Of a DNA stretch of 64,000 nt, positions 7,071-64,000 are shown piece by piece (the stretch's first letter is position 1; every line of letters starts with the position of its first letter). The translations under genes were made by a program, and so were the position numbers. The DNA is taken from assembly GCF_027579695.1 (NCBI RefSeq), contig NC_083587.1, positions 8,124,001-8,188,000 of the forward strand. Direction: 5' to 3'. Source of the stretch: Neoarius graeffei. Lineage: Eukaryota > Chordata > Actinopteri > Siluriformes > Ariidae. The notes under the pieces are model-generated. The model saw only the letters and a program-made list of their open reading frames with translations, had not been told where the DNA came from and searched no databases.

Positions 7071-8660
7071 TAAGTGTTTGACTGAATCTTCAAAGTGGAC
7101 TCCCCCTCTAGAAATGACTTTTGTCAGGACGTCTGAAGTCTAAACAAGTAATCTGATGTCTTCTCTCCAGCATTTTGGTTCGTGCTCAAGAACTTTGCAA
7201 ACAGCTCCTCTCCATCCTCTACAACACCAAAAGCTGACTCAAGATGATTAACATATGCACGAGGGGTTGACGTGGTCCCAAGTGGCTTTACCATGTCAGC
7301 GGCTGGGCCAACCAGACTGTCTAGAACCTTCTTCACCTTCTGTGAGTCTGTGACATAAGGGTCATTAAGAAGCAGCTCAACTTGAGTTTTCCATGCTTCA
7401 TAATCTACTTCGCCGTTCAGCTTTGGAACTCTTCCTGAGAAGGTGTGGATTTTAGTCTGGCTTGTGTATGGTGGTGCAGAATCATTCTGGATAACATGTT
7501 CTACAACTACTCTTTGGATGCTTGGAGGATTAATGACATCATCAGCAAGGCTCAGTGGGCTGTACCCAGTGGAGTGGGTGCTCAAAGGGGGAACTCCAGA
7601 CATGAAAGAGCGACTGTTGCACTGCGTGCTCATGCTCTGAGTGGCTTTGACATCCATGCTGGTCTCAGTGTGTGATATGGGGCTGTCTCCGGGGGTGGGA
7701 ATGCTGTCTGTTCTCTCAGAAGTCTCTGACTGAATCCATCTAAGCTCTCCTTCCAGGATGCTGGCATATCCTGATGTGGCACTACCACCTATGGCACTCA
7801 ATTCTTCTAGGTACTGTCGGGCAAGCTCTTTGCCCACATCTTCTTGGCATATGTCTCTAACTGTTCTAACATGCCATAAAGTGGTTGGCTCATTGGGACT
7901 GGGTATATGGCCAAGGGTATCTGGGTTGATCATAGTTATTGAGTTTTCTGAAGCATAAACTATTAATACCCTGCCATTAGGTTGATTGGGCTCATCAGGA
8001 ACTCTAATGCATTTTGAAATCTCATCTCATCTCATTATCTCTAGCCGCTTTATCCTGTTTTACAGGGTCGCAGGCAAGCTGGAGCCCATCCCAGCTGACT
8101 ACGGGTGAAAGGCGGGGTACACCCTGGACAAGTCGCCAGGTCATCACAGGGCTGACACATAGACACAGACAACCATTCACACTCACACCTACAGTCAATT
8201 TAGAGTCACCAGTTAACCTAACCTGCATGTCTTTGGACTGTGGGGGAAACCAGAGCACCCGGAGGAAATCCACATGGACACGGGGAGAACATGCAAACTC
8301 CGCACAGAAAGGCCCTCGCCGGCCACGGGGCTCGAACCCAGACCTTCTTGCTGTGAGGCGACAGCGCTAACCACTACACCACCGTGCTGCCCCATTTTGA
8401 AATCTTGCCATTTTATTCAAGAAAGCTATAATTAGCAAGATTTTTCATCAGTGCATATTTGATCGACACCTGCTACTATCAAGCAGCATTGTCCAAGTAC
8501 TTTATAACAGTTGCAAAGATAAATGTTTGACTAAGGTGAGCACTATTTTCAAGTAGCCTAGTTCACTAGAAATATTTTTACAGTGAGGTGTGGTCAAAGG
8601 GGTGTGGTACGTGGTCTTAAAACCATTTAACCAATCTCCTGGCTGGCTCCCCAAACTTTC
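7071..8660 (-). repeat. Leader+gag unit B (tandem copy)
   Basis: Second copy of the leader and gag segment, adjacent to the LTR. It carries an uninterrupted PNMA-like gag stretch of about 270 residues at about 7124-7933 and a SINE insertion at 8023-8393. Units A and B are similar over their shared length but clearly diverged. Confidence 0.75.
8023..8393 (-). mobile_element. tRNA-derived SINE
   Basis: A 371 bp minus-strand SINE flanked by a 12-bp target duplication ATTTTGAAATCT at 8011-8022 and 8394-8405. On the minus strand it opens GGGGCAGCACGGTGGTGTAG (A box region), has a GGTTCGAGCCC-type B box, and ends GATAATGAGATGAGATGAG. Same family as 24214, 37720, 46161 and 48547. Confidence 0.9.
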
Positions 8661-9922
8661 TGTAACCTGCATGACAAGGGAAGGGCCTGTGCTTGTGCAG
8701 GAACAGTCTAATTCTAAGTTCTAGGTTCTAGAGGAGACTGGTTTAGGTTAGGCTAGACCACAATCAATTACTCACCCCAAACAACACACAACACTCACTG
8801 GTATAAGGATAAAAAAAAAAAACAAATATTTATTTAGACAATAAGTTAAAGAGAATATAAGTAATTTACTCTGTGCAAATTATCAATCATGTAACCAGTA
8901 TTCTAAGTGCAGTTAGTAAAGGTGTCAATATGAAGAATAAATAACATGTCAATACAAAGAATCTATTTGTGTTTTAACTAGGTTAGTAAAGGTCTCAATG
9001 TTGAGAATAAATAGCCACTCTATTTATCAATAACTATTTAAAGACTTATTTAATTCCTACTAAAAATCTATTTAACTCAGTTAAATTATTAAGTTGTGAA
9101 TGGTAAGCTACTTTTGTTTCCTAGGGTTTTCTATGTGATACAAGTGTACCCAAAACACTGTTAAATTGTTACTAGATGTAAAAAAAAAAAACCAAAACCC
9201 TGTATCAATACCAATACACTATTAGTGCCGGCACTAGAGTTCTAAATAACAAATTAAAGAAATGAATGAAACAAACAAAATATTAAATAAAACCCAATTG
9301 AGATCTCAAAAACAAACAAACAAAAAAAAACTAAATCAAAATAAGCCTAAAGAAAACTGATTGCACCCAAAAAAATGAAATTAAAATAAGAAGAATAGAG
9401 TGGGGATGTTAAATGTGTGGCTCAGTCCAATTTCCGATCCAAGTCTGCGTATTGTGTTCAAATTTGATCTTGACACAGTCACAGGGCAAGGGATGGTGGC
9501 AAGTAGCTAAGGGAGATCAGCCACAGGAGATGTGAGGAGGCATGCAAGGGGGAATGGTAACACAAGAGAGATGGGGGCCACAGGTGGGGGACTCCAAGGT
9601 ATCCACAGATGAAGACGACAGTGACACAGGGTTTCCAGGTGTCCAAAAAAAAAACAGTCCGGATATCTGCTCTTAATCAAGATCTCCAACAATCTCAGGG
9701 TCTTGATTATAGATAAGCATAGATTAGATGTCAGTCTCTCTCTCTCTCTCTCGGTATCAAAGGTAATCGTGTCTATCCAGTTTCTCGATTTCAAGTCTGG
9801 TTTTAAAGCGGCAGTTCTTATTATTATTTGAGGAAACACTCTCGCACACGCTCTAGGGGCTATCAGCAAACTCTCAGTACACCAGAATGGGTTAGGGGCA
9901 TCTAAAAATCATATGGGTTACA
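8661..9922 (-). mobile_element. LTR (1.26 kb) of the PNMA-like Ty3 fossil
   Basis: The ends are perfect 7-bp inverted repeats TGTAACC and GGTTACA with TG..CA termini. It sits directly upstream, on the minus strand, of the gag leader. The interior is AT-rich with A-runs. An open frame of 120 codons (9507-9869) falls inside and is kept in both arms, but nothing supports it as a gene. The mirror copy is 62739-63995. The LTR call rests on ends plus position; the second LTR of this element is not in the window. Confidence 0.6.
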
Positions 9923-10440
9923 TAAGCTTGCTCAAAAGTAGCCTTCAGTTGAAATATATTATTTCACAGGCCTAGATTTTCATATATTTTTTCACCAGCC
10001 AGCCGGACTAGTTACCTTCCAAAGTAACTAGCCAAACAGAAAATCAACTCGCCAAAATTTGTTCATGTGTAAATTTTACTTCTGTCAAAAATAACACAAA
10101 AGAGAGTAGTTACCATTGTTCATGACTAATGTGCATTTATTTCAAGACCCGAGTATTTTGATACTGTTGTTAAATACATAAATGAGAACAATACAGAGCA
10201 CCATAATATCAACAAATAATAATATATTGGAAAACTTGGCAACTTGGTGTATGAGTATTGAAAACAAATATACTTACTATCATGACTATAGCACCCAAAA
10301 TATGTCCAACATGCTTTCTGTATTTAACCATTTATGAGAGAGAAAGCATTAGGAGCTTCATATTGACTAGGAATCAACTTGAAAAAGTAAATTATTCAAT
10401 AAAAATTGTATCACAGCCAAGGCCTACCCTGCTCCCACAT
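9923..10440. other. AT-rich stretch, nothing recognised
   Basis: Sequence between the LTR and a relic zinc-finger exon. It includes a short inverted pair, CTAGTTACCTT and AAGTAACTAG, near 10007-10032. No coding signal or known repeat was identified. Confidence 0.4.
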
Positions 10441-10571
10441 TTGCTTATAAGTCCTTTGTCGTTCCTCCTTCTTGTATGCGTTATCTCGTATGCCCTTTTC
10501 TCCTCTTCAGACCGAGGTCACTTTGTCCCCGTCTCTGGCGGTTTCTGTACACCTTTCAGAAAATTCCACAT
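10441..10571 (-). pseudogene. Relic first exon, TTF/ZNF862-like (hAT-derived) protein
   Basis: Minus-strand ATG at 10571 opens MWNFLKGVQKPPETGTKRPR then SEEEKRAYE. A later frame in the same exon reads ERQRTYKQMWEQGRPWL, which resembles the start of ZNF862/KIAA-type proteins with a TTF zinc finger and a hAT core. A frame change separates the two parts. No downstream exon is recognisable before the LTR. Mirror copy at 62090-62220. The family call is from memory of the motif and is tentative. Confidence 0.35.
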
Positions 10572-10740
10572 CGCAACATAACTTTGGCAGATGTAGATGT
10601 AAACAACAAAAACGTGTTTAAATGGGTGATAATGTGGCCACATCGATTGAATTTGATAACGTGATTACTGCGATATTCAGCGAGATGCATGATATGCATG
10701 CGCAGTTGTGAAAAAACCGACAGCCTGACTCGTACACGAT

Positions 10741-11478
10741 GTGATTCAGAATTCTGCTAAACCTGATGAGAGACACCAGCTTAATAGAATTGAAGAATGT
10801 GTTAAGGACATTAGGCACTGGATGCTGATTAATTTCCTTCTGCTTAACCCTGACAAGACTGAAGTACTTGTACTCGGACCACATGCAGCTAGAAGTAAGT
10901 TTTCTGATTCCACAGTAACTCTGGATGGCCTTTCTGTTTCTTCACATACAGCAGTAAAAGACCTCAGGGTGATTATTGACCCCAGTCTTTCATTTGAAAA
11001 TCATATTGATAACATTACCTGGATAGCTTTCTTTCATCTCAGAAATATTGCTAAGATAAGAAATTTAATGTCACTACATGACGTGGAAAAAACTAGTTCA
11101 TGCTTTTGTTACCTCCAGGTTGGATTATTGTAATGTCTTACTGTCTGGATGTTCCAATAAGTGCATACACAAGCTCCAGTTAGTTCAAAATGCAGCAGCA
11201 AGAGTCCTTACTCGAACTAGAAAATATGACCACATCAGCCCTGTCTTATCCACACTGCATTGGCTCAATCAAATTTCATATTGATTATAAAATGCTACTA
11301 TTGACCTTTAAAGCACTGAATAGTCTCGCGCCACAGTACCTGAGTCAACTTCTGGTCCTCTATGACCCGCCACGCCTACTTAGATCAAAAGGTGCAGGCT
11401 ATCTGCTGGTACCTCATATAGTCAAGGTTACATCAGGGGGCAGAGCCTTTTCTTACAAAGCCCCACAGTTATGGAACA
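10741..11478 (+). mobile_element. L2-clade LINE, reverse-transcriptase C-terminal fragment
   Basis: Translated segments follow the usual order for the end of an L2/Maui-type ORF2: IRHWMLINFLLLNPDKTEV, then [66 protein letters not shown] and FKALNSLAPQYL, ending KAPQLWNSLP. The segments lie in two frames, so the copy is dead. It is truncated at both ends: it starts at a junction near 10741 and is cut by a SINE piece at about 11480. Mirror copy at 61183-61920. Confidence 0.8.
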
Positions 11479-11479
11479 G

Positions 11480-11629
11480 CCTTCCAAGTACCCAGAGCAC
11501 CCAGAGGAAACCCACACAGGCATGGGGAGAACATGCAAACTCCACACTGAATGGCCCCCCTCCGCCAATGGGCTCAAACCTTCTTGCTGCGACGTGATAG
11601 TGCTAACCACCACGCCACTGTGCCACCCA
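11480..11629 (-). mobile_element. SINE head fragment
   Basis: On the minus strand it begins GGGTGGCACAGTGGCGTGGT and includes the conserved TTTGCATGTTCTCCCC-type core (seen in plus as GGGGAGAACATGCAAACTCC). Tail and clear target duplication are missing. The 11630-11792 stretch after it holds an A16 run and otherwise nothing recognisable. Confidence 0.7.
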
Positions 11630-11792
11630 CTTTTGACCTCAAACGCAAATGTCTTCAGTGTATGGCAAAAAAAAAAAAAAAACACAACAGAATTGGCCAT
11701 GCTGTTCCAATACTTTTGGGCTTGCAGCTGGAAATACTGTCAGAGCTGTTGCTATCAAAAATGAATCACTACATTCTGAGCAGCTTTGAGAG

Positions 11793-12104
11793 TGGTGTGG
11801 TGGTGTAGTAGTTCGCACTGTTACCACACAGTAAAATGGTTCCAGGTTCGAACTTCATGGCTAACGGGGGCCTTTCTGTGTGGAGTTTACATGTTATCTG
11901 TGTGGAATTCCTCTGGGTGCTCCAGTTTCCTTTCACAGTTCAAAGACATGCAGATGAGGTAAAAATAACCAGCCACTGGGGTTGCACAAGCCAGTGCATA
12001 TTAGTGCTATTCCCAAGACTGAGTACATTGTATCCGGTGTTTGGGGGTGGGAAGCTATGCCAAATCAAATATGCGGCTCATGGGAGCAGCTGAAAGAAGC
12101 AGAC
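11793..12104 (+). mobile_element. tRNA-derived SINE with RTE-like 3' tail
   Basis: The head has GTGGTGGTGTAGTAG and a B box GGTTCGAACTT near 11852-11862. The core GCCTTTCTGTGTGGAGTTTA follows, then an alternative tail including CACTGGGGTTGCACAAGCCA and CCAAATCAAATATGCGGCTC, which I associate with fish SINEs that share an RTE-type LINE end. Degraded. Mirror copy at 60552-60863. Confidence 0.65.
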
Positions 12105-12130
12105 TCTACTTACTAATCTGTTTAAAAATC

Positions 12131-12218
12131 TGTCTAATTGATCTCAGAAGCTAAACAGAGTTGGGCCTGGTTAGTACTTGAGTGGGAGACTGCCTAGGAA
12201 TACCAGGTACTATAAGCT
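12131..12218 (+). pseudogene. 5S rRNA-like unit, 5'-truncated
   Basis: Contains GATCTCAGAAGCTAAACAGA, GGGCCTGGTTAGTACTTGAG and GGGAGACTGCCTAGGAATAC, the internal control region and 3' half of 5S rRNA with decayed CpG sites. The first ~30 nt are lost. Confidence 0.7.
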
Positions 12219-12322
12219 TTTTATTTTGCCTTCTTGTAGATATCTGTTTGAATTTCCCCTCTGGGCAGTGCAAGGCAAGGCAAGCCAAGCCTTGAAAAAT
12301 GCCACATTTCCAACTATGTGTT

Positions 12323-12440
12323 GCTTATGGCCAAACCACTCTGACAACACTTGATGCTGTCTGATCTCAGAAGCTAAATGGAATTGGGCCTGGTTAGGAC
12401 TTGAGTGAGAGACTGCCTAGGAATCCCAGGTGCTGTATGC
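12323..12440 (+). pseudogene. 5S rRNA-like unit, full length but diverged
   Basis: 118 nt from GCTTATGGCCAAACCACTCT to GTGCTGTATGC, aligning end to end with 5S rRNA but with many transitions. A T-rich stretch (ATTTTATTTT) follows as in a pol III terminator. Its neighbour unit begins exactly 223 bp downstream. Confidence 0.75.
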
Positions 12441-12545
12441 ATTTTATTTTGCCTTCTTGCAGATATCTGTTTGAATTTCCCCTCTGGGCAGTGCAAGGCA
12501 AGGCAAGCCAAGCCTTGAAAAATGCCACATTTCCAACTATGTGTT

Positions 12546-12663
12546 GCTTATGGCCAAACCACTCTGACAACACTTGATGCTGTCTGATCTCAGAAGCTAA
12601 ATGGAATTGGGCCTGGTTAGGACTTGAGTGAGAGACTGCCTAGGAATCCCAGGTGCTGTATGC
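12546..12663 (+). pseudogene. 5S rRNA-like unit, full length but diverged
   Basis: Second full unit of the 223-bp tandem. The spacer with GGGCAGTGCAAGGCAAGGCA and GCCACATTTCCAACTATGTG is shared between units, so this is a decayed 5S rDNA array rather than single retro-copies. Confidence 0.75.
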
Positions 12664-12767
12664 ATTTTATTTTGCCTTCTTGCAGATTTCTGTTTGAATT
12701 TCTGTCTGCCTGCCTCAATCCCTCTCTGCCCCTGCCAAGGCCTGCAAGGACACACAGTCACAGCTTA

Positions 12768-13283
12768 AGGCCAATTTATGCTGACAACCCAGTCCTCGCA
12801 GACGGTGTCACAGATAGCGTCTGCGTAGCCCCCCACCTTTGCAGACGCTCTGCGTGCACCTCCCAAAAATTGTGACCACCGCAGAAGCCTCGCAGACAGC
12901 GTCGCAGACAAGAGGGCTCTGATTGGTCCACTCTACATCCGCTGTACACGCACTTCCACTTCCCTACTTTCCCGGTTTGTTTTGTTTTCACGACCGCCAT
13001 TTTTAAAAACACGAGCGAAGATGGAGCAGCACGAAGAGCGGTTGATCGAGGAAACACATACATCTATACAACTCCAGTTCTAGTCATTATAAGTAACCGG
13101 AGGATAAACACTCCACTAACCACACCCACCAACTACTCCTAGCGATTTCGCGACTTCACGCCCCCTTGCGTTGTGTCGGTGAATAACATCACGCACGCCT
13201 ATTACTCCCCGCTCAACGATAAATTACAACTGTCTGCGAAAAGCTATCTGCGAAAGCCTTGTCGCAAGAGCATGCAGAGGCCT
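12768..13283 (-). mobile_element. PIF/Harbinger-type MITE (516 bp)
   Basis: Ends are AGGCCAATTTATGC and the complement of AGGCCTCTGCATGC, flanked by TTA at 12765-12767 and 13284-13286, the 3-bp duplication expected for Harbinger. Inside, on the plus strand at 13021, an ATG opens MEQHEERLIEE and soon stops. This resembles the start of the MADF/Myb-like accessory protein of autonomous Harbinger elements. Copies at 43323-43848 (spacer) and 59373-59888 (right arm). The strand is arbitrary. Confidence 0.75.
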
Positions 13284-14540
13284 TTAGGCCAAAGCTGTGC
13301 CCAAAGCAACCCAACCCCCCACGGACCAGCTCTTCTGTTAATGGCTCTCTTTGTTCAACTCTGGGGGAGGGGTTGTAGGCCTTAGCTGTCAAAACAAAAA
13401 CTTGCCTGTCTTTCTTAACAGAGAGATAGAGACAGATAGAAAAGCAGGCTAGAGAGAGAGAGAGAGAGAGATCCTGAAATGTAGAAAAGAGGCGATAGAT
13501 ATGTTAGACTGAATTTTATTATTATTATTATCATTATAACAATAATAATATCATCATCAAAGTCTAAAAATACAGTAAATCATTTTATCCAATCCTGAGC
13601 TATGGGGGTAAACAAAGAGTTCTCTGAGCTGGGTTTCATAAATGCCATAAATAAGCCTACACATATTGTCTCAGTACTCAGCAGTATGAGTTGGTGTCCA
13701 CTCATACACCAAGTCATTTAAGATCTGATATTGTTGGAAAGGGCATAGTCTAAGTTTTATTCTGGTCTTTAATATGTTGGGTTCAAGGCAGTTTAAGATC
13801 TGTAAAGGAGGTCAGACATACAGCATGTCTTAAGGTCTTACAACCCAGCAGAATATAGCCATTATTAAAGCTGTCTTAATTTCAGATCTCTGAAGGGCTA
13901 TATGAACAAGAATGTTCTCTGAGGTAGGCCTTAAGGTACCCTTTAATATGGTTTATGGATACAGTAAATCATTTTATCCAAGCCTGAGCTATGGGGGTAA
14001 ACATAGAGTTCTCTGAGCTGGGTTTTATAAATTATTTAAGCTATAATAAGCTTTATTTCACCCTTTTGTGTGTGTAAGATCAACCTTTTTCACAATGTTG
14101 TCATCATTTGAACTTGAGTTAACATTATTGACCATCTTTATTTTTAATTCCTCCTGTGTCTTCTTGTTTGGTTTTCTAGGTAAGGCTTCTCTGAATAAAA
14201 GAAGAGCAGGCTTTTGTTCAGCAGGTGTCTGAAGATTTCTGGTGAGGCTTTTCTTATGTCTTCTATGAATAAAATGCTGTTTTGTGGCTTTAAGTTTTCT
14301 CATATGTGGGGAAGGTCAGCAATAGTGCAAAACCATCCCCGAATTTTTGAGTTCTTGGTTTTAAGGGTCTAATGATATATCTATACATATTGTTGTCATT
14401 TTAAATGCATGAAGTGAGACAGCGTGTTTTGCCATTTGTGGAGACCAGTGTATGTTTTCATGTATGGTTTGAAACATTGTTTTTCAACAAACCTGGTTGA
14501 AAACCACAGGTTGATGGGAGGGTCTAACCTCTACATAGCC
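13284..14540. other. No gene seen; simple repeats and a direct-repeat pair
   Basis: Holds a (GA)n run at about 13453-13471, an (ATT)n-like tract near 13517-13555, and a direct repeat of about 80 bp: TACAGTAAATCATTTTATCC followed by GAGCTATGGGGGTAAACA occurs at about 13570-13650 and again at 13960-14035. No coding region is convincing. Confidence 0.5.
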
Positions 14541-14580
14541 CCACCCTCATTTGCATTTCTGTAAGTATAAATACCAGAGG
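14541..14580 (+). promoter_or_regulatory. Octamer and TATA box of the C2HC gene fragment
   Basis: ATTTGCAT octamer at 14549-14556 and TATAAATA at 14566-14573, with the first candidate ATG 264 bp downstream (14837). Spacing of octamer to TATA is as in compact pol II promoters. Inferred from motifs only. Mirror TATA at 58080-58087. Confidence 0.45.
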
Positions 14581-14836
14581 CAGAATCTAGGCCAATCTAC
14601 CCTGAAGTTCTGCTGAAGACTGCTGAATACTCTGCTAGATTTCATTGTCATTGCTACGTGCCTTTGAGCCTTTTGCTGGAGATTCTGCAGAAGATATTTC
14701 CATTACTGCTACTACTAAAAAGCTTTATTCCTTTACCACTAAAGCAATTTTAATTGCTACTTGCCTTTGAGTCTTGTGCTCAGAGTTTGACCTTCTTTGT
14801 CTTCAATTTGTCCAGAGCTTCACTCATTGCTGAGAT

Positions 14837-16381
14837 ATGGATTCAAAGTAAGGTACATTAATAGTTGCTTGGATATTGTATTGTAAATAGGTGCAGCTAG
14901 TTTTGCTTTTGTGATGTTCAGAGTATATGCTTAGCTTTTGAATAATTGTGTTTTTCTTGTTTGTACCTTTCATGCACCTTTTTTTTATTCAACCTATTGT
15001 GAATTAACCTATTATTATTTCTATATTAACTACATTTACTTAATGCCTTTCTTTTCTTTTTCTAGGAAACTTGTACGCAGGCACCATTTGCTTTGCCCAG
15101 TCTGTTTTAGGACCCAAGAAACACTATCTTGTCATGTGCGCAGATCGTGCATGAAAAACAGCCCCGAAGCTGCCATTGAAACGGTGGTCGAAAAGGCCAA
15201 GAATTAAGTTTTCCATCTCCTGAAGCATGGCAGGACTTTTGACTATGTGGTCCTTACTCAAATAATGGCTGATGGCAATCCTATCCAAAGGTTGGTGGCT
15301 TCCACATTACTTTTTGTTTAATCTAGGGTTATTCCATATATGCCATTCCTTACATTGAATAATCAACAACCTATTTACATCTGACTGAGGGCGGTGATAA
15401 TGGGGCTGTAAGGATAATGGACCTAATTTGGAAAATGCTGACATTTCCCCATTCCCCCAATGGACAGAATGCTTTTGTTTTGGTTAATAGCTCTCCTTTT
15501 GTTCTGGTTGATAGCTCTGTGCTGCTGCTGTGTGTGTGTGTGTTTGTGATGAAAGCATAAAAAATAGTTTTGAGTATGAAAACAATCACCTTTTACTAGT
15601 TTGATTTCACACACTTTAGTTCATTAACCATTTTCAAATGTTTTGTTTTCCTTATTGAAAGATGGATTGAGGAGCTGGAGCGTCATCACTTGGTTGTGAC
15701 TAGAATCCCACCCTCTCTGCCCAATGCCGAACCAGCCACCAGGCATCAGCAACCTGAAACTGTAACTGGACCCCAGGGTGAGCCATCTGGAGAGTTTGAT
15801 GGGGACTTGGCATCTACCAGCAGTGGCGAGGTGTTTCAGTGGTGAGAGTCTCAGTTTCACAACTTATCTGATGATGTGTGTTTTTCAGTGTGGCTCACAT
15901 TAAATCATAACTATGCACTATTATAACAAAAGTTTTATCCCACATTGCAGTGACCGAGATGTGAATTATTCCAACAAGACCAAGCACAACATGCGTGAGA
16001 TGGGCCTTTATAAGAAGCATTCTCTGGACCATCCACTGCTGAAGGACTTTGCCAAACACCTAGAATTAGATCTCAACTATGTCCATTACAAACAAGAGAT
16101 GAGGACCATCGTTACACACACTGTGTTTATTAGAAACGTTAATTAGAATGTTCATAAAAGATGAAACAAGAAGCAACGGTCATGATTAGAAGGTAATTTA
16201 AAATTGTTTATTTCATTTTCAGGCTGAAAATGTTTCTCGGTACCTCTACTATGTCAACCCTGAGACACCATCCCTGCAGTTTGTCAATGACAGAGAGAAG
16301 CTCTGACAGTACCTACATCACCTCTCTGATGCAAAATTAAAAAAAACAAAGTCAGCAGAATTACCTCAAGAGCTTGAAAAG
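14837..16381 (+). pseudogene. Spliced C2HC-finger gene fragment, Crypton/tyrosine-recombinase-like N-terminus
   Basis: Five exons can be read: 14837-14847 (MDSK), 15066-15290, 15662-15841, 15951-16110 and 16223-16381, with GT..AG junctions and matching phases. The protein starts MDSKKLVRRHHLLCPVCFRT, then a C2HC finger ending CHVRRSCM. Exon 5 gives AENVSRYLYYVNPETPSLQF, like the SAM-like N-terminal domain of tyrosine recombinases. Decay: exon 2 has TAA at codon KN* where the right arm reads TAT, and exon 5 has TGA after DREKL in both arms. Exon 4 of this copy is followed by about 33 extra bases absent from the right arm. No catalytic C-terminus exists: the gene is cut off by 5S-like sequence at about 16434. 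The family assignment is inference from a remembered fish multicopy family. Confidence 0.5.
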
Positions 16382-16433
16382 GTTGGTAGCAGTTTTCTTT
16401 TATTATGATGTCAACAGTGTGACAAAATAAAAT

Positions 16434-17276: not shown

Positions 17277-17376
17277 AGCAGTTAGTTGGAAATATGGCTT
17301 TTTTCTTGCCTTGCCTTGCCCCACCCTGCCCTGAGGGGAAATTCAAACAGATATCTGCAAGAAGGCAAAATAAAAT

Positions 17377-17494: not shown

Positions 17495-17588
17495 AGCAGT
17501 TAGTTGGAAATATGGCTTTTTTTTGCCTTGCCTTGTGCCACGCTGAGGGGAAATTCAAACAGATATCTGCAACAAGGCAAAATAAAAT

Positions 17589-52500: not shown

Positions 52501-54936
52501 TGGTATGCATTCCGTAGGTCCAACTTGGTGAAGATGGTGGCGCCTTGGAGCAGGTCGAAAGCAGTGGACATCAGCGGAAGGGGATATCGGTTGCGCACAG
52601 TGATCTTGTTCAGGCCCCTGTAGTCAATACATGGTTGGAGCCCCCCATCCTTCTTGCCAACAAAGAAGAAGCCGGCACCAGCAGGTGAGGTGGAGGGTCG
52701 AATGAACCCAGAGACCAGGGCGTCTTTGAGGTATTCCTCCATGGCCTTGCGTTCTGGCTGAGAGAGGGAAAACAGTCTGCCACGAGGAGGGGTAGTCCCA
52801 GGGAGCAAGTCGATGGCACAGTCGTAGGCCCGGTGCGGAGGAAGAACGGCGGCCCTGCTCTTGCTGAATACCTCCTTGAGATCCCAGTACTCTGTGGGAA
52901 CTTGAGATAACTCGGTGAGATCAGGGGGCTTGGCAGGAGACACAGCAGAGCTAGAGAGCAGACAAGAGGCATGGCATGCAGGGCCCCATTCCACAACCTG
53001 GCTTGTTACCCAGTCTATGCAAGGGTTGTGGCAAGTAAGCCAAGGAAGGCCTAGAATAACTGGGAACTCAGGTGAAGGAATCAGGTGCAGGGATATTTCT
53101 TCCTTGTGACCTTGAGACTGGAGGAAGACTGGAGAAGTAACTTGGGTGACTCTTCCATCACCTAACGCTTGGCCATCGAGGGCAGACACAGACAGTGGGA
53201 CTTCAAGAGGTGCAGTCGGAATATTGATGCTTTGGGCGAAGTGAATATCCATAAAGTTCCCAGCCACCCCTGAGTCTAACAAAGCTTGACAAGAGTGGAC
53301 AGACTCACCCCAGGAGATGGAGACCAGGATGTAGATTCCTTGGCCAGGGAGTCCGGGAGAGAGGGTAGGCCCCGTCACAACCCTCCCTCGGCTGGACGGG
53401 GCGGTCCTTTTCCCAAGAGTTCAGGACATGATGCTCAGAAGTGACCAGGCTTGCCACAGTAGATGCAGCACTTGTCCCTCCTTCTGCGTTCCCTCTCAGA
53501 TGCGGAGAGGCGAGTACGACCCACTTGCATGGGTTCTGGACAGTCACTGAAGGAGGTAGACGGTCTCCAGATAGAGGTAGGGAGGCTGGGGGGGCTCAAG
53601 GCTTGGTGGCGTTCTCTCATCCTGTTGTCCAGATGAATAGCATGTGAGATGAGGGTTTCGAGGTCACTTGGGCATCCAATAGAGGCCAGACTGTCCTTGA
53701 TGGGGTCAGACAGACCATGGTGGAAGGCTGACACCAGGGCAGTCTCGTTCCATCCACTTACTGCTGCGAGCGTCCGGAACGAGATGGCATAATCTGCGAT
53801 GCTTCCTCCTTGCCGGATGGACATGAGCTTTCGGGCTGCTTCAGTACTGATGTCCGCCTGATCGAAGACCCGAAGCATCTCTTCAGAAAACAGCTGGAAA
53901 TCAAGGCACTCAGGTCCCTGTCTTTGCCAGATAGCAGTAGCCCAGGCTCGCGCCTTACCAGCTAATAAGGTGATCACAAAGGCAATCTTGTGGCGATCCG
54001 TAGTGTAGGTGGTAGGCTGAAGCTCAAAGGTGAGTTAACACTGGGTAAGGAACTCTCGGCACTCACTGTGCTTGCCGTCGTACCTCTGTGGTGCAGGAAG
54101 GCTGGGTTCGCGAGGTGAAGAAGGCAGCATGGCAGGAGCAGGAGCTGGATCAGGAGATGCAGGCAGAGATGTCAGCTGTGCCAGGGTTTTCCCAATTTGC
54201 TGAAGCAGTTCCTCGTGGCGAGCAAGGGCCTCACGTTGGCTGGTGAGCGTACGTCCATGGTCGCTCCGAAGCGTGTCAAAGCTGCCGTAATTCCCTGAAG
54301 GTTGGCCGGGTAGACAGTTGAAGCAGCCTCTGCTGAGTCGGTCATGACGGAGTCTTTCTGTTAGGGTTTTGCCGGGATTCGAACCCGGTTCGTTGGTGTG
54401 ATAATCCAGCAAACCCCCACTAGGCCACCAGGGGGATGACTCAAATACAGAGGCGTGAGGCGGAAGTACAAAAAGTATCAAAAAAGTTTATTTACAATAT
54501 GTACAAAAAATATCCAAAAAGTACAAATACAAAAACGCTCAGAAGATATAAGGGAAAAAATAAAAAATCCAAAAGTACAAAACAAAAGCCAAAAAAAACA
54601 GAAAAGAAAAGGCAAAAATATCAAAGCTCAGAAGATCCAAAAAACACAGTAACTACTAGGTCCAAAAGAAAAGCAAAATGCAAAATAAAGAACACGGTAC
54701 AGAGGAAACTGGAGATAAACATAACAGCATAAAGACTCTGTGACAAGAGGACTGAAATCAGGGGGTATAAATGCACAAACTAAATTGAACACAGGTGAAG
54801 ATAATCAGGACTAAACAGGCAATTAACACAAACACAAAACACAGGAACAGTGGCGGCCTCTAGAGGCCAAAATAAACATGACACGAAAAGGAAATAACAG
54901 CGGCCTCTAGAGGCCAAAACAGTCCTAGTCCTAACA
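49519..54936 (-). mobile_element. Sushi-ichi-like Ty3/Gypsy element, right-arm copy
   Basis: LTRs 49519-50102 and 54359-54936, duplication GCAAG at 49514-49518 and 54937-54941, the complement of the left-arm site. Gag at about 54345-53435; pol, with the same domain order as in the left copy, at about 53380-50115. Outline complete, broken by several breaks. Corresponding LTRs of the two arms resemble each other more than the two LTRs within one element do, so the insertion predates arm duplication. Confidence 0.93.
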
Positions 54937-54984
54937 GCAAGTCAAAGCAACTATTGAAAAAAGCCACATTTCCAACTAACTGCT

Positions 54985-55102
54985 GCTTATGGCCAAACCA
55001 CTCTGACAACGCCTGATCCTGCCTGATCTCAGAAGCTAAACAGAGTTGAGCCTGGTTAGTACTTGAGTGGGAGACTGCCTAGGAAAACCATGTACTGTGA
55101 GC
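54985..55102 (+). pseudogene. 5S rRNA-like unit
   Basis: Mirror of 17589-17706. Confidence 0.7.
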
Positions 55103-55196
55103 ATTTTATTTTGCCTTGTTGCAGATATCTGTTTGAATTTCCCCTCAGCGTGGCACAAGGCAAGGCAAAAAAAAGCCATATTTCCAACTAACTGCT

Positions 55197-55314
55197 GCTT
55201 ACAGCCAAACCACTCTGACAATGCCTGATCCCCTCTGATGTCAGTAGCTTAACAGAGTTGGGCCTGGTTAGTACTTGAGTGGGAGACTGCCTCGGAATAC
55301 CAGGTACTGTAAGC
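55197..55314 (+). pseudogene. 5S rRNA-like unit
   Basis: Mirror of 17377-17494. Confidence 0.7.
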
Positions 55315-55409
55315 ATTTTATTTTGCCTTCTTGCAGATATCTGTTTGAATTTCCCCTCAGGGCAGGGTGGGGCAAGGCAAGAAAAAAGCCATATTTCCAA
55401 CTAACTGCT

Positions 55410-56252
55410 GCTTACAGCCAAGCCAATCTGACAACACCTGATCCTGTCTGATCTCAGGCCAAGTTTACATTAGACCGTATCTGTCTCGTTTTCTTTGCGG
55501 ATGCACTGTCCGTTTACATTAAAACGCCTGGAAACGCCGGGAAACGGGAATCCGTCAGGGTCCACGTATTCAATCCAGATTGTGTCTGGTCCGGTGCTGT
55601 GTAAACATTGAGAATATGCGGATAAGCGGATTCACTGGGCTGAGCTCTAGCTGGCATCGTCATTGGACAACGTCACTGTGACATCCACCTTCCTGATTCG
55701 CTGGCGTTGGTCATGTGACACAACTGCTGAAAAACGGCGCGGACTTCCGCCTTGTATCACGTTTCATTAAAGAGTATAAAACTATGAAAATACTGCAAAT
55801 ACTGATGCAAATACTGCCCATTGTGTAGTTATGATTGTCTTTAGGCTTGCCATCCTTCCACTTGCAAGTGGTAAGTGACGCGCATGCCCGACATGCACTG
55901 AGATCACACACACAGCGGCTCAGTCCCAAATCACTGCTTGTGCGCTCCACTCGCGCGCTCTGTGAGCTGCGCAGGGCCGGAGTGCGCACCCTCCAGAGGG
56001 CACTCGCTGTTCAGGGCGGAGTGATTTGGAGCGCAGGATGCCTGTGGAGCCGAGCGTATCCGTGTATTGGCGTTGCTGTGTGCACGCAAACCGTGTATTG
56101 GCGTTGCTGTGTGCACACTAATCATTTTAAAAACGTTAATCTGATGATCCGCTGATATGGTCTAATGTAAACCCCACCTCAGAAGCTAAACAGAGTTGGG
56201 CCTGGTTAGTACTTGAGTGGGAGACTGCTTAGGAATACCAGTTACTGTATGC
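55410..56252 (+). pseudogene. 5S rRNA-like unit split by a MITE
   Basis: Mirror of 16434-17276. The MITE occupies 55458-56177. Confidence 0.7.
55458..56177. mobile_element. 720-bp MITE, right-arm copy
   Basis: CTCAG at 55453-55457 and 56178-56182, ends GCCAAGTTTACATTAGACC and the complement of GTGGGGTTTACATTAGACC. Confidence 0.7.
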
Positions 56253-56304
56253 ATTTTATTTTGTCACACTGTTGACATCATAATAAAAGAAAACTGCTAC
56301 CAAC

Positions 56305-57816
56305 CTTTTCAAGCTCTTGAGGTAATTCTGCTGACTTTGTTTTTTTTAATTTTGCATCAGAGAGGTGATGTAGGTACTGTCAGAGCTTCTCTCTGTCATT
56401 GACAAACTGCAGGGATGGTGTCTCAGGGTTGACATAGTAGAGGTACCGAGAAACATTTTCAGCCTGAAAATGAAATAAACAATTTTAAATTACCTTCTAA
56501 TCATGACCGTTGCTTCTTGTTTCATCTTTTATGAAGTGTAACGATGGTCCTCATCTCTTGTTTGTAATGGACATAGTTGAGATCTAATTCTAGGTGTTTG
56601 GCAAAGTCCTTCAGCAGTGGATGGTCCAGAGAATGCTTCTTATAAAGGCCCATCTCACGCATGTTGTGCTTGGTCTTGTTGGAATAATTCACATCTCGGT
56701 CACTGCAATGTGGGATAAAACTTTTGTTATAATAGTGCATAGTTATGATTTAATGTGAGCCACACTGAAAAACACACATCATCAGATAAGTTGTGAAACT
56801 GAGACTCTCACCACTGAAACACCTCGCCACTGCTGGTAGATGCCAAGTCCCCATCAAACTCTCCAGACGGCTCACCCTGGGGTCCAGTTACAGTTTCAGG
56901 TTGCTGATGCCTGGTGGCTGGTTCGGCATTGGGCAGAGAGGGTGGGATTCTAGTCACAACCAAGTGATGACGCTCCAGCTCCTCAATCCATCTTTCAATA
57001 AGGAAAACAAAACATTTGAAAATGGTTAATGAACTAAAGTGTGTGAAATCAAACTAGTAAAAGGTGATTGTTTTCATACTCAAAACTATTTTTTATGCTT
57101 TCATCACAAACACACACACACACAGCAGCAGCACAGAGCTATCAACCAGAACAAAAGGAGAGCTATTAACCAAAACAAAAGCATTCTGTCCATTGGGGGA
57201 ATGGGGAAATGTCAGCATTTTCCAAATTAGGTCCATTATCCTTACAGCCCCATTATCACCGCCCTCAGTCAGATGTAAATAGGTTGTTGATTATTCAATG
57301 TAAGGAATGGCATATATGGAATAACCCTAGATTAAACAAAAAGTAATGTGGAAGCCACCAACCTTTGGATAGGATTGCCATCAGCCATTATTTGAGTAAG
57401 GACCACATAGTCAAAAGTCCTGCCATGCTTCAGGAGATGGAAAACATAATTCTTGGCCTTTTCAACCACCGTTTCAATGGCAGCTTCGGGGCTGTTTTTC
57501 ATGCACGATCTGCGCACATGACAAGATAGTGTTTCTTGGGTCCTAAAACAGACTGGGCAAAGCAAATGGTGCCTGCGTACAAGTTTCCTAGAAAAAGAAA
57601 AGAAAGGCATTAAGTAAATGTAGTTAATATAGAAATAATAATAGGTTAATTCACAATAGGTTGAATAAAAAAAAGGTGCATGAAAGGTACAAACAAGAAA
57701 AACACAATTATTCAAAAGCTAAGCATATACTCTGAACATCACAAAAGCAAAACTAGCTGCACCTATTTACAATACAATATCCAAGCAACTATTAATGTAC
57801 CTTACTTTGAATCCAT
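56305..57816 (-). pseudogene. Spliced C2HC-finger gene fragment, right-arm copy
   Basis: Exons on the minus strand: 57816-57806, 57587-57363, 56991-56812, 56702-56543 and 56463-56305, with the same GT..AG sites as the left copy. Exon 2 is open here: the codon after KN is TAT, giving EKAKNYVFHLLKHGRTFDY, then VVLTQIMADGNPIQR. Exon 5 still carries the TGA after DREKL, so the copy is also non-functional as a full protein unless it ends there. It lacks the ~33 extra bases near exon 4. The N-terminal C2HC finger and exons 1-4 are intact, about 190 codons. Family call as for the left copy, tentative. Confidence 0.5.
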
Positions 57817-58079
57817 ATCTCAGCAATGAGTGAAGCTCTGGACAAATTGAAGACAAAGAAGGTCAAACTCTGAGCACAAGACTCAAAGGCAAGTAGCAAT
57901 TAAAATTGCTTTAGTGGTAAAGGAATAAAGCTTTTTAGTAGTAGCAGTAATGGAAATATCTTCTGCAGAATCTCCAGCAAAAGGCTCAAAGGCACGTAGC
58001 AATGACAATGAAATCTAGCAGAGTATTCAGCAGTCTTCAGCAGAACTTCAGGGTAGATTGGCCTAGATTCTGCCTCTGG

Positions 58080-58104
58080 TATTTATACTTACAGAAATGC
58101 AAAT
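58080..58104 (-). promoter_or_regulatory. TATA box and octamer, right-arm copy
   Basis: TATTTATA at 58080-58087 (TATAAATA on the minus strand) and ATGCAAAT at about 58097-58104, upstream of the exon 1 ATG at 57816. Confidence 0.45.
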
Positions 58105-59372
58105 GAGGGTGGGGCTATGTAGAGGTTAGACCCTCCCATCAACCTGTGGTTTTCAACCAGGTTTGTTGAAAAACAATGTTTCAAACCATACATGAAAACA
58201 TACACTGGTCTCCACAAATGGCAAAACACGCTGTCTCACTTCATGCATTTAAAATGACAACAATATGTATAGATATATCATTAGACCCTTAAAACCAAGA
58301 ACTCAAAAATTCGGGGATGGTTTTGCACTATTGCTGACCTTCCCCACATATGAGAAAACTTAAAGCCACAAAACAGCATTTTATTCATAGAAGACATAAG
58401 AAAAGCCTCACCAGAAATCTTCAGACACCTGCTGAACAAAAGCCTGCTCTTCTTTTATTCAGAGAAGCCTTACCTAGAAAACCAAACAAGAAGACACAGG
58501 AGGAATTAAAAATAAAGATGGTCAATAATGTTAACTCAAGTTCAAATGATGACAACATTGTGAAAAAGGTTGATCTTACACACACAAAAGGGTGAAATAA
58601 AGCTTATTATAGCTTAAATAATTTATAAAACCCAGCTCAGAGAACTCTATGTTTACCCCCATAGCTCAGGCTTGGATAAAATGATTTACTGTATCCATAA
58701 ACCATATTAAAGGGTACCTTAAGGCCTACCTCAGAGAACATTCTTGTTCATATAGCCCTTCAGAGATCTGAAATTAAGACAGCTTTAATAATGGCTATAT
58801 TCTGCTGGGTTGTAAGACCTTAAGACATGCTGTATGTCTGACCTCCTTTACAGATCTTAAACTGCCTTGAACCCAACATATTAAAGACCAGAATAAAACT
58901 TAGACTATGCCCTTTCCAACAATATCAGATCTTAAATGACTTGGTGTATGAGTGGACACCAACTCATACTGCTGAGTACTGAGACAATATGTGTAGGCTT
59001 ATTTATGGCATTTATGAAACCCAGCTCAGAGAACTCTTTGTTTACCCCCATAGCTCAGGATTGGATAAAATGATTTACTGTATTTTTAGACTTTGATGAT
59101 GATATTATTATTGTTATAATGATAATAATAATAATAATAAAATTCAGTCTAACATATCTATCGCCTCTTTTCTACATTTCAGGATCTCTCTCTCTCTCTC
59201 TCTCTAGCCTGCTTTTCTATCTGTCTCTATCTCTCTGTTAAGAAAGACAGGCAAGTTTTTGTTTTGACAGCTAAGGCCTACAACCCCTCCCCCAGAGTTG
59301 AACAAAGAGAGCCATTAACAGAAGAGCTGGTCCGTGGGGGGTTGGGTTGCTTTGGGCACAGCTTTGGCCTAA
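58105..59372. other. No gene seen; direct repeats and simple repeats
   Basis: Mirror of 13284-14540, with the same direct-repeat pair and the (TC)n run near 59187-59205. Confidence 0.45.
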
Positions 59373-59888
59373 AGGCCTCTGCATGCTCTTGCGACAAGGC
59401 TTTCGCAGATAGCTTTTCGCAGACAGTTGTAATTTATCGTTGAGCGGGGAGTAATAGGCGTGCGTGATGTTATTCACCGACACAACGCAAGGGGGCGTGA
59501 AGTCGCGAAATCGCTAGGAGTAGTTGGTGGGTGTGGTTAGTGGAGTGTTTATCCTCCGGTTACTTATAATGACTAGAACTGGAGTTGTATAGATGTACGT
59601 GTTTCCTCGATCAACCGCTCTTCGTGCTGCTCCATCTTCGCTCGTGTTTTTAAAAATGGCGGTCGTGAAAACAAAACAAACCGGGAAAGTAGGGAAGTGG
59701 AAGTGCGTGTACAGCGGATGTAGAGTGGACCAATCAGAGCCCTCTTGTCTGCGACGCTGTCTGCGAGGCTTCTGCGGTGGTCACAATTTTTGGGAGGTGC
59801 ACGCAGAGCGTCTGCAAAGGTGGGGGGCTACGCAGACGCTATCTGTGACACCGTCTGCGAGGACTGGGTTGTCAGCATAAATTGGCCT
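59373..59888 (+). mobile_element. PIF/Harbinger-type MITE, right-arm copy
   Basis: TAA flanks at 59370-59372 and 59889-59891, mirror of 12768-13283. I saw no difference from it where compared. Confidence 0.75.
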
Positions 59889-59992
59889 TAAGCTGTGACT
59901 GTGTGTCCTTGCAGGCCTTGGCAGGGGCAGAGAGGGATTGAGGCAGGCAGACAGAAATTCAAACAGAAATCTGCAAGAAGGCAAAATAAAAT

Positions 59993-60525
59993 GCATACAG
60001 CACCTGGGATTCCTAGGCAGTCTCTCACTCAAGTCCTAACCAGGCCCAATTCCATTTAGCTTCTGAGATCAGACAGCATCAAGTGTTGTCAGAGTGGTTT
60101 GGCCATAAGCAACACATAGTTGGAAATGTGGCATTTTTCAAGGCTTGGCTTGCCTTGCCTTGCACTGCCCAGAGGGGAAATTCAAACAGATATCTGCAAG
60201 AAGGCAAAATAAAATGCATACAGCACCTGGGATTCCTAGGCAGTCTCTCACTCAAGTCCTAACCAGGCCCAATTCCATTTAGCTTCTGAGATCAGACAGC
60301 ATCAAGTGTTGTCAGAGTGGTTTGGCCATAAGCAACACATAGTTGGAAATGTGGCATTTTTCAAGGCTTGGCTTGCCTTGCCTTGCACTGCCCAGAGGGG
60401 AAATTCAAACAGATATCTACAAGAAGGCAAAATAAAAAGCTTATAGTACCTGGTATTCCTAGGCAGTCTCCCACTCAAGTACTAACCAGGCCCAACTCTG
60501 TTTAGCTTCTGAGATCAATTAGACA
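59993..60525 (-). pseudogene. Tandem 5S rRNA-like units (three), right arm
   Basis: Units at 59993-60110, 60216-60333 and 60438-60525 (partial), 223-bp period, mirror of 12131-12663. Confidence 0.72.
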
Positions 60526-60551
60526 GATTTTTAAACAGATTAGTAAGTAGA

Positions 60552-60863
60552 GTCTGCTTCTTTCAGCTGCTCCCATGAGCCGCATATTTGATTTGGCATA
60601 GCTTCCCACCCCCAAACACCGGATACAATGTACTCAGGCTTGGGAATAGCACTAATATGCACTGGCTTGTGCAACCCCAGTGGCTGGTTATTTTTACCTC
60701 ATCTGCATGTCTTTGAACTGTGAAAGGAAACTGGAGCACCCAGAGGAATTCCACACAGATAACATGTAAACTCCACACAGAAAGGCCCCCGTTAGCCATG
60801 AAGTTCGAACCTGGAACCATTTTACTGTGTGGTAACAGTGCGAACTACTACACCACCACACCA
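60552..60863 (-). mobile_element. SINE with RTE-like tail, right-arm copy
   Basis: Mirror of 11793-12104. Confidence 0.65.
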
Positions 60864-61031
60864 CTCTCAAAGCTGCTCAGAATGTAGTGATTCATTTTTG
60901 ATAGCAACAGCTCTGACAGTATTTCCAGCTGCAAGCCCAAAAGTATTGGAACAGCATGGCCAATTCTGTTGTGTGTTTTTTTTTTTTTTTTTTTGCCATA
61001 CACTGAAGACATTTGCGTTTGAGGTCAAAAG

Positions 61032-61181
61032 TGGGTGGCACGGTGGCGTGGTGGTTAGCACTATCACGTCGCAGCAAGAAGGTTTGAGCCCATTGGCGGA
61101 GGGGGGCCATTCAGTGTGGAGTTTGCATGTTCTCCCCATGCCTGTGTGGGTTTCCTCTGGGTGCTCTGGGTACTTGGAAGG
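61032..61181 (+). mobile_element. SINE head fragment, right-arm copy
   Basis: Mirror of 11480-11629. The nearby T-run (about 60975-60992) is longer than the A-run in the left arm. Confidence 0.7.
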
Positions 61182-61182
61182 C

Positions 61183-61920
61183 TGTTCCATAACTGTGGGG
61201 CTTTGTAAGAAAAGGCTCTGCCCCCTGATGTAACCTTCACTATATGAGGTACCAGCAGATAGCCTGCACCTTTTGATCTAAGTAGGCGTGGCGGGTCATA
61301 GAGGACCAGAAGTTGACTCAGGTACTGTGGCGCGAGACTATTCAGTGCTTTAAAGGTCAATAGTAGCATTTTATAATCAATATGAAATTTGATTGAGCCA
61401 ATGCAGTGTGGATAAGACAGGGCTGATGTGGTCATATTTTCTAGTTCGAGTAAGGACTCTTGCTGCTGCATTTTGAACTAACTGGAGCTTGTGTATGCAC
61501 TTATTGGAACATCCAGACAGTAAGACATTACAGTAATCCAACCTGGAGGTAACAAAAGCATGAACTAGTTTTTTCCACGTCATGTAGTGACATTAAATTT
61601 CTTATCTTAGCAATATTTCTGAGATGAAAGAAAGCTATCCAGGTAATGTTATCAATATGATTTTCAAATGAAAGACTGGGGTCAATAATCACCCTGAGGT
61701 CTTTTACTGCTGTATGTGAAGAAACAGAAAGGCCATCCAGAGTTACTGTGGAATCAGAAAACTTACTTCTAGCTGCATGTGGTCCGAGTACAAGTACTTC
61801 AGTCTTGTCAGGGTTAAGCAGAAGGAAATTAATCAGCATCCAGTGCCTAATGTCCTTAACACATTCTTCAATTCTATTAAGCTGGTGTCTCTCATCAGGT
61901 TTAGCAGAATTCTGAATCAC
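61183..61920 (-). mobile_element. L2 LINE reverse-transcriptase fragment, right-arm copy
   Basis: Mirror of 10741-11478 with the same encoded residues. Confidence 0.8.
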
Positions 61921-62089
61921 ATCGTGTACGAGTCAGGCTGTCGGTTTTTTCACAACTGCGCATGCATATCATGCATCTCGCTGAATATCGCAGTAATCAC
62001 GTTATCAAATTCAATCGATGTGGCCACATTATCACCCATTTAAACACGTTTTTGTTGTTTACATCTACATCTGCCAAAGTTATGTTGTG

Positions 62090-62220
62090 ATGTGGAATTT
62101 TCTGAAAGGTGTACAGAAACCGCCAGAGACGGGGACAAAGCGACCTCGGTCTGAAGAGGAGAAAAGGGCATACGAGATAACGCATACAAGAAGGAGGAAC
62201 GACAAAGGACTTATAAGCAA
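62090..62220 (+). pseudogene. Relic TTF/ZNF862-like first exon, right-arm copy
   Basis: MWNFLKGVQKPPETGTKRPR at 62090 onward, mirror of 10441-10571. Same frame change between its two halves. Confidence 0.35.
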
Positions 62221-62738
62221 ATGTGGGAGCAGGGTAGGCCTTGGCTGTGATACAATTTTTATTGAATAATTTACTTTTTCAAGTTGATTCCTAGTCAATA
62301 TGAAGCTCCTAATGCTTTCTCTCTCATAAATGGTTAAATACAGAAAGCATGTTGGACATATTTTGGGTGCTATAGTCATGATAGTAAGTATATTTGTTTT
62401 CAATACTCATACACCAAGTTGCCAAGTTTTCCAATATATTATTATTTGTTGATATTATGGTGCTCTGTATTGTTCTCATTTATGTATTTAACAACAGTAT
62501 CAAAATACTCGGGTCTTGAAATAAATGCACATTAGTCATGAACAATGGTAACTACTCTCTTTTGTGTTATTTTTGACAGAAGTAAAATTTACACATGAAC
62601 AAATTTTGGCGAGTTGATTTTCTGTTTGGCTAGTTACTTTGGAAGGTAACTAGTCCGGCTGGCTGGTGAAAAAATATATGAAAATCTAGGCCTGTGAAAT
62701 AATATATTTCAACTGAAGGCTACTTTTGAGCAAGCTTA
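62221..62738. other. AT-rich stretch, nothing recognised
   Basis: Mirror of 9923-10440. Confidence 0.4.
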
Positions 62739-63995
62739 TGTAACCCATATGATTTTTAGATGCCCCTAACCCATTCTGGTGTACTGAGAGTTTGCTGATA
62801 GCCCCTAGAGCGTGTGCGAGAGTGTTTCCTCAAATAATAATAAGAACTGCCGCTTTAAAACCAGACTTGAAATCGAGAAACTGGATAGACACGATTACCT
62901 TTGATACCGAGAGAGAGAGAGAGAGACTGACATCTAATCTATGCTTATCTATAATCAAGACCCTGAGATTGTTGGAGATCTTGATTAAGAGCAGATATCC
63001 GGACTGTTTTTTTTTTGGACACCTGGAAACCCTGTGTCACTGTCGTCTTCATCTGTGGATACCTTGGAGTCCCCCACCTGTGGCCCCCATCTCTCTTGTG
63101 TTACCATTCCCCCTTGCATGCCTCCTCACATCTCCTGTGGCTGATCTCCCTTAGCTACTTGCCACCATCCCTTGCCCTGTGACTGTGTCAAGATCAAATT
63201 TGAACACAATACGCAGACTTGGATCGGAAATTGGACTGAGCCACACATTTAACATCCCCACTCTATTCTTCTTATTTTAATTTCATTTTTTTGGGTGCAA
63301 TCAGTTTTCTTTAGGCTTATTTTGATTTAGTTTTTTTTTGTTTGTTTTTGAGATCTCAATTGGGTTTTATTTAATATTTTGTTTGTTTCATTCATTTCTT
63401 TAATTTGTTATTTAGAACCCTAGTGCCGGCACTAATAGTGTATTGGTATTGATACAGGTTTTTTTTTTTTTTTTTTTACATCTAGTAACAATTTAACAGT
63501 GTTTTGGGTACACTTGTATCACATAGAAAACCCTAGGAAACAAAAGTAGCTTACCATTCACAACTTAATAATTTAACTGAGTTAAATAGATTTTTAGTAG
63601 GAATTAAATAAGTCTTTAAATAGTTATTGATAAATAGAGTGGCTATTTATTCTCAACATTGAGACCTTTACTAACCTAGTTAAAACACAAATAGATTCTT
63701 TGTATTGACATGTTATTTATTCTTCATATTGACACCTTTACTAACTGCACTTAGAATACTGGTTACATGATTGATAATTTGCACAGAGTAAATTACTTAT
63801 ATTCTCTTTAACTTATTGTCTAAATAAATATTTGTTTTTTTTTTTATCCTTATACCAGTGAGTGTTGTGTGTTGTTTGGGGTGAGTAATTGATTGTGGTC
63901 TAGCCTAACCTAAACCAGTCTCCTCTAGAACCTAGAACTTAGAATTAGACTGTTCCTGCACAAGCACAGGCCCTTCCCTTATCATGCAGGTTACA
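62739..63995 (+). mobile_element. LTR of the PNMA-like Ty3 fossil, right-arm copy
   Basis: TGTAACC..GGTTACA ends, followed by GAAAG, the first bases of the leader seen left of 8661. The element body, if present, lies beyond the window. Confidence 0.6.
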
Positions 63996-64000
63996 GAAAG

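Follow-up and report, generated by a model that had tools for sequence, protein, structure and literature searches.

An old inverted segmental duplication in Neoarius graeffei with an inner part probably homogenised by gene conversion

Ordinary inverted intrachromosomal segmental duplications are multi-copy, rich in transposable elements and more than 90% identical, and they carry gene fragments. Palindromes of sex chromosomes have also been described in terms of conversion: in palindrome P6 of the human Y chromosome, the conversion tracts inferred have, in the part of that work used here, a mean minimum length of 2068 bp and a maximum in excess of 9 kb (PMC3723533), and the palindromes of the willow W chromosome are presented, in the section drawn upon, as containing 20-kb conserved stretches with evidence of conversion (PMC7023750). 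This article deals with a large inverted duplication on contig C20 of Neoarius graeffei (Siluriformes, Ariidae), found in a window of 64,000 nucleotides (C20:8124001-8188000, NC_083587.1). On the strength of its divergence pattern, we regard it with fair assurance as an old inverted segmental duplication pair, in which gene conversion between the arms later made the inner part uniform, probably on more than one occasion. Coordinates are positions in the window, negative to its left and above 64000 to its right; flanks of 100 kb per side were added, then another 20 kb on the right, and genome-wide comparisons were made against 2.34 Gb in 38 contigs.

Within the window, the two arms occupy the following positions:

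1..26408, plus strand: left arm, matched in inverted orientation by the right arm inside and outside the window; outside the window it reaches to about -20.7 kb and, by short blocks, to -28.2 kb
44335..64000, minus strand: right arm; outside the window it reaches to about 130.7 kb (163.4 kb if short blocks are counted) and includes long stretches without match

A preliminary description of this DNA had paired 8656-26471 in inverted orientation with 44306-64000. Self-comparison and alignment of 8656-26471 with the reverse complement of 44305-64000 confirm this pairing, at 96.5-100% identity per kb. Along the left arm, identity is 99.5-100% in the first eight 1-kb bins and 99.4% in the ninth, 97.6-99.3% in the bins with a Ty3/Gypsy element, and 98.8-99.6% in the two bins inside of that element; it falls to 96.5% in the innermost bin. 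The longest run identical between the arms is 1673 bp (13516-15188). Perfect agreement over 240 bases at 13141-13380, reported earlier, is consistent with the alignment, where the only mismatch of the kb closes the run 12019-13057 and no further difference occurs before a gap at 13515. An inverted match of such length is not chance.

The arms of 17.8 and 19.7 kb first proposed do form an inverted repeat, but they belong to a larger inverted duplication of patchy divergence, of which they are only the inner piece, and the left end placed at 8656 is no biological boundary, being merely the partner of base 64000 at the window edge. With the flanks taken in, 7063-16117 pairs with 65599-56536 (99.5% identity), 2412-5883 with 68386-64921 (96.3%), and -4266..1792 with 74851-68813 (96.2%). 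The best collinear inverted chain is made of 20 blocks and runs out to -28207 on one side and 163406 on the other; 19 of them are 93-99% identical, and the remaining block, of 334 bp, is 80.5% identical. The chain can be trusted as far as about -20.7 kb on the left and 130.7 kb on the right. Blocks past these points, 208-1155 bp long, could be separate repeats, making the extent there, with outermost blocks of 251-1155 bp beyond -21.6 kb, less certain, and the same may hold for the block -6362..-4354, which lies on a Tc1-like repeat also present at 46958-48490. On the right side, stretches of 13-21 kb without left-arm partner lie between the collinear blocks. A 5000-N gap (163501-168500; C20:8287501-8292500) lies 94 bp past the last right-hand inverted match; the right arm may continue behind it, and past it only scattered matches to the left side occur. 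Since at least 1 kb is shared at 90% identity or more between two places, and well beyond one transposon, the pair is an inverted segmental duplication. It differs from palindromes of the human Y type, with arms more than 99.9% identical throughout, in the per-kb range given above and in outer blocks at 95.3-97.3%.

How is the divergence distributed along the arms? When CpG-context sites and CA/TG pairs are set aside, three levels are seen. The outer arms, counted over six blocks (13 other outer chain blocks, of 202-2011 bp, being left out), differ at 309 of 17033 non-CpG sites, that is 1.81% (95% interval 1.62-2.03). The internal part and 3′ long terminal repeat (LTR) of the Ty3/Gypsy element, counted with its 5′ LTR left out, differ at 36 of 4437 sites (0.81%; 0.57-1.12). 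The lowest level is that of the core, with 14 of 10282 sites at 7063-17753 (0.14%; 0.07-0.23) and 7 of 2793 in its inner part at 23227-26200 (0.25%; 0.10-0.52), positions 26201-26471 being excluded from the counts. With sites treated as independent, the outer arms differ from the Gypsy element (P=6e-7) and the latter from the two core parts (P=1e-9 and 0.002), while no difference is seen between the core parts (P=0.19). An isolated 500-bp bin starting at 234 holds 2 differences, against 25 and 11 in the neighbouring bins, and has the look of a small core-like patch. The main tract is placed as follows:

7063..17753, plus strand: core tract with the lowest arm-to-arm divergence (14/10282 non-CpG sites)
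54938..64000, minus strand: right-arm counterpart of the core tract, running on to 65599

A tract more alike than its collinear flanks on one chromosome, with sharp edges, is what gene conversion is expected to leave, and it is what is found here. Its left edge lies at a direct repeat of the left arm:

5205..5883, plus strand: direct-repeat unit U1
7063..7741, plus strand: direct-repeat unit U2

To the left of the edge, at 2412-5204, the arms differ at 97 of 2784 positions (about 3.5%), and from U2 inward, at 7063-17753, at 30 of 10648 (about 0.3%); the step coincides with the left edge of U2, beside a left-arm-only stretch. The left arm reads U1, a 1.18-kb middle and U2, and the 1858 bp made of U1 and the middle (5205-7062) are absent from the right arm, where the single unit differs from U2 in 4 of 679 columns and from U1 in 24 of 679. 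Such a one-arm-only stretch would be a natural stopping place for heteroduplex extension. At its other end, the low-divergence tract takes in the 5′ LTR of the Gypsy element (2 of 579 positions differ, and 0 of 557 non-CpG sites) and ends just past it, arm differences being dense from 18418 onward. The inner end of the arm itself is a minisatellite, followed on the left side by a CA repeat; on the right side, the arm meets sequence that by eye resembles a Gypsy LTR end.

Duplication breakpoints often lie at repeats such as direct repeats and minisatellites, and the core has the one at its left edge and the other at its inner edge. This would suit a second, recent inverted duplication of the core only (7.06-26.4 kb), set beside or over the older copies and involving no gene conversion at all. 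Such an origin strikes us as improbable: the core is in collinear register with the older inverted flanks in both arms, where a fresh insertion would have to replace its homologue, and the Gypsy element inside it is more diverged than its surroundings. As a separate observation, open reading frames (ORFs) with a PNMA match lie in and beside the direct repeat, at 5266-5598 and 7124-8026 (minus strand).

The element common to both arms is found at:

17754..23226, plus strand: Ty3/Gypsy element of the left arm, LTRs at 17754-18332 and 22642-23226, target duplication read as CTTGC
49519..54937, minus strand: Ty3/Gypsy element of the right arm, same insertion as in the left arm

Both copies have the hallmarks of a Ty3/Gypsy LTR retrotransposon, namely LTRs, a target duplication, and Pfam matches to reverse transcriptase (RVT_1), RNase H, integrase and gag, the last two scanned in the left copy only. 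They are one insertion, with an identical target site in the two arms, and the corresponding empty site is found in the copies of the segment at C20:6.448 Mb and C18:3.406 Mb. When the 92 internal differences between the arm copies are polarised by a further copy in the spacer, 42 fall to the left arm and 42 to the right, with 8 unresolved. In comparison with two other full-length copies (on C21 and C15, the best-listed others for the left and right arm), 31 sites unite the two arms and 9 contradict this. This grouping and the equal numbers of polarised changes argue for a common history of the two arm copies, followed by a divergence that was about equal on both sides and longer than that of the surrounding core. 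For the left copy, 34 further full-length copies at about 97% identity are among the matches listed (35 scored of 5153 candidates). The right-arm copy, which has 45-bp and 10-bp deletions, is not among the matches listed there, being either unscored or outscored; conversely, a search with the right copy gave the left one as the best besides itself, among 35 scored of 4833 candidates.

Could the excess divergence of the element be due to a history of its own, whether decay of methylated CpG sites, conversion from other Gypsy copies or errors that such copies introduced into the consensus? Sixty of the 92 internal differences are at CpG-type sites, and the copies listed at about 97% would be possible donors. 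We nevertheless think it unlikely: the excess persists at non-CpG sites (P=2e-8) and among transversions (P=5e-5), the 31 sites against 9 (two of the listed copies compared) hold the arms together, and the nearest relative of the right copy among those scored is the left one. Two narrower candidates were rejected on the same grounds. CpG decay as sole cause leaves the non-CpG and transversion excess in place, and replacement of one arm's element by another genomic copy conflicts with the grouping sites, no closer donor being listed among 35 scored of about 5000 candidates for each arm. Also improbable is the idea that a young retrotransposon in palindrome arms resists conversion, the tracts stopping past the 5′ LTR and resuming after the 3′ LTR while the internal part keeps an older divergence; were it true, transposon insertions would set the boundaries of homogenised blocks.

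The segment is a member of a multi-copy family, and a third copy at C20:6.44-6.52 Mb helps to place the age of the pair. With outer left-arm sequence as query, pieces of at least 1 kb match C20:6.508-6.516 Mb at 94-95% and the right arm at 94-95%, shorter pieces ranging from 91 to 96%. Queried with outer right-arm sequence, the third copy matches over 5831 bases (94%) and over 424 (97%), and the left arm matches at 94-95%. In this outer block, the third copy is thus about as far from each arm as they are from each other. In the core the picture is otherwise. Over a 580-bp piece no difference separates the arms, against 2.1% to the third copy and 2.9-5.4% to six other copies (of 9 paralogue pieces, 2 with coverage under 450 bp were dropped). 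Elsewhere in the core, the left arm and the third copy agree at 93-98% in the pieces compared. The segment is also present at other places on C20 (6.79-6.85, 10.15-10.18 and 11.25 Mb) and on C18 and C17. Within C17:3.492-3.514 Mb, pieces of the right-hand spacer and arm are again found together with their order and orientation kept, and this conserved order speaks for an old right-hand arrangement; the innermost part of the arm was not listed there (40 scored of 6086 candidates).

These data also bear on the possibility, already raised in the preliminary description, that the assembly joined two haplotypes of one locus head to head. The total differences in the core, 0.2-0.6%, could be heterozygosity, the SINE-like and Tc1-like elements carried by the right arm alone could be allelic, and the last right-arm match does end 94 bp from an N gap. 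Alleles, however, would diverge uniformly, but divergence along the arms is uneven, and the six outer blocks differ by 2.7-4.7%. Moreover, in the outer block the third copy lies at about the same distance from either arm, the right arm has its own 13-21 kb stretches between collinear blocks, no N interrupts the sequence from -100 kb to 163.5 kb, and spacer and arm pieces stand together at the C17 site. An artefact of this kind is therefore unlikely.

The other proposal made at the outset, a segmental duplication subject to gene conversion, is well supported, but only the inner part is young, the pair itself appearing older. As we see it, a multi-copy segment would have been placed twice on C20, in opposite orientation, about as long ago as the split from the third copy at 6.44-6.52 Mb. 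Being inverted and close, about 18 kb apart, the arms of one chromatid can pair with each other or with those of the sister chromatid, and non-crossover repair then copies the sequence of one arm onto the other. At least two such episodes are proposed: an earlier one would have covered the Gypsy element, leaving the 0.81% non-CpG divergence, and a later one would have covered 7063 to about 18.35 kb, with the same or another event at 23.2-26.2 kb. This later tract would have halted at the 1.86-kb left-arm-only stretch and just past the 5′ LTR. The right arm also gained SINE-like and Tc1-like elements of its own.

Several points weigh against this scenario. Conversion was not seen as an event, one individual of one species having been compared. 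Divergence is uneven within the outer part, and the P values assume independent sites. An element of intermediate divergence between two younger stretches demands an extra step. Non-CpG divergence between the LTRs (8 of 561 sites) does not differ from that of the outer arms (309 of 17033; P=0.63), and the Gypsy insertion is therefore not demonstrably younger than the arm duplication. Finally, the outer block used in the three-way comparison is largely a repeated element, with copies on C20 at 8.95 and 9.29 Mb at 92-93% (one piece 89%) and copies elsewhere at 82-89% for long pieces, which makes it a weaker yardstick than unique sequence.

The spacer and the insertions found in the right arm alone are located as follows:

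26409..44334, no strand: spacer, with another Ty3/Gypsy copy, a Tc1-like element, a SINE-like copy and Gypsy fragments
29640..35127, minus strand: separate Ty3/Gypsy copy of the spacer, with 578/5424 differences from the left-arm copy
48547..48916, minus strand: SINE-like insertion, with a 14-bp target duplication and a clean empty site in the left arm
46884..48489, minus strand: Tc1-like insertion, flanked by TA, with a clean empty site in the left arm

Pieces of the right part of the spacer have a paralogue at C17:3.492-3.497 Mb. We take the first of the two insertions to be of the short interspersed element (SINE) type; the second is 96.7% identical to the Tc1-like copy of the spacer, which has a Pfam HTH_Tnp_Tc3_2 match. 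Because both are in the right arm alone, this arm is longer than the left one, and the third copy, with 564 bases for 562 of the query, likewise has no large insertion at this place. The right arm lacks 33 bp at 56536 that the C18 copy contains, and has thus undergone a deletion there.

The arms also contain gene-like ORFs and sequences resembling 5S ribosomal RNA (rRNA):

15052..15312, plus strand: exon-like ORF ex1, left arm, of a multi-copy family, with a stop (TAA) inside
57341..57601, minus strand: exon-like ORF ex1, right arm, no stop inside
15654..16116, plus strand: exon-like ORFs ex2 (15654-15842) and ex3 (15925-16116), left arm
56537..56999, minus strand: exon-like ORFs ex2 and ex3, right arm
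12139..12702, plus strand: left-arm array of tandem 223-bp units, holding two 5S rRNA-like matches
17229..17735, minus strand: left-arm array of tandem 212-bp units, holding two 5S rRNA-like matches and separated from the Gypsy element by about 18 bp
54956..55457, plus strand: partner 5S-like units, right arm
59954..60517, minus strand: partner 5S-like units, right arm

The genome holds 25 matches to ex1, both arms included (16 on C20, 6 on C18, 2 on C17 and 1 on C1, some places having two). Pfam assigned no family to the ex1 ORF. Beside ex1 in the C18 copy lies an ORF with a Pfam SET match below the cut-off (E=0.0047), and an ORF of the outer arms (at -9458 and 112298) is 40% identical to it. 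Such exons may be joined with SET domains in certain fish families; a literature search on KMT5A expansion gave no mention of the term among the matches listed. Both outer arms also hold a long ORF, of 510 amino acids on the left (-151 to 1378, minus strand) and 505 on the right (69241-70755, plus strand), the right copy having no Pfam match. The 5S rRNA-like sequences number four per arm, eight in total, in two arrays per arm, with 65-82 bits against a gathering score of 38; the paralogues on C18, C17 and C20 have corresponding units as well. ARAGORN found no transfer RNA.

A large inverted repeat can thus combine parts of different age, so that inner identity dates the last conversion rather than the duplication, and a sharp tract edge together with a shared insertion and empty sites in paralogues makes a good test bed for what stops conversion tracts. 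The locus is a good example of an already known process; no fish palindrome was among the titles and abstract openings listed by our literature searches, which we do not offer as evidence that fish palindromes have gone unreported. Compared with the ordinary inverted segmental duplications described at the outset, it has the same traits and differs little beyond its clear divergence steps and conversion edge. The willow W palindromes have four arms and lie on a sex chromosome, at least in the section of that account drawn upon (PMC7023750), whereas the C20 locus has two arms and no known sex linkage. The human Y palindromes, as far as the portion of the source used here goes, are likewise long inverted arms around a spacer, with a near identity explained by multi-kb conversion tracts; they are, however, more than 99.9% identical from arm to arm, which only inner stretches approach here (PMC3723533). 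They are also sex-chromosomal, while the C20 locus has no known sex linkage or testis genes. With its length of about 11 kb, the low-divergence stretch of C20 comes near the maximum given for P6, and possibly represents several tracts.

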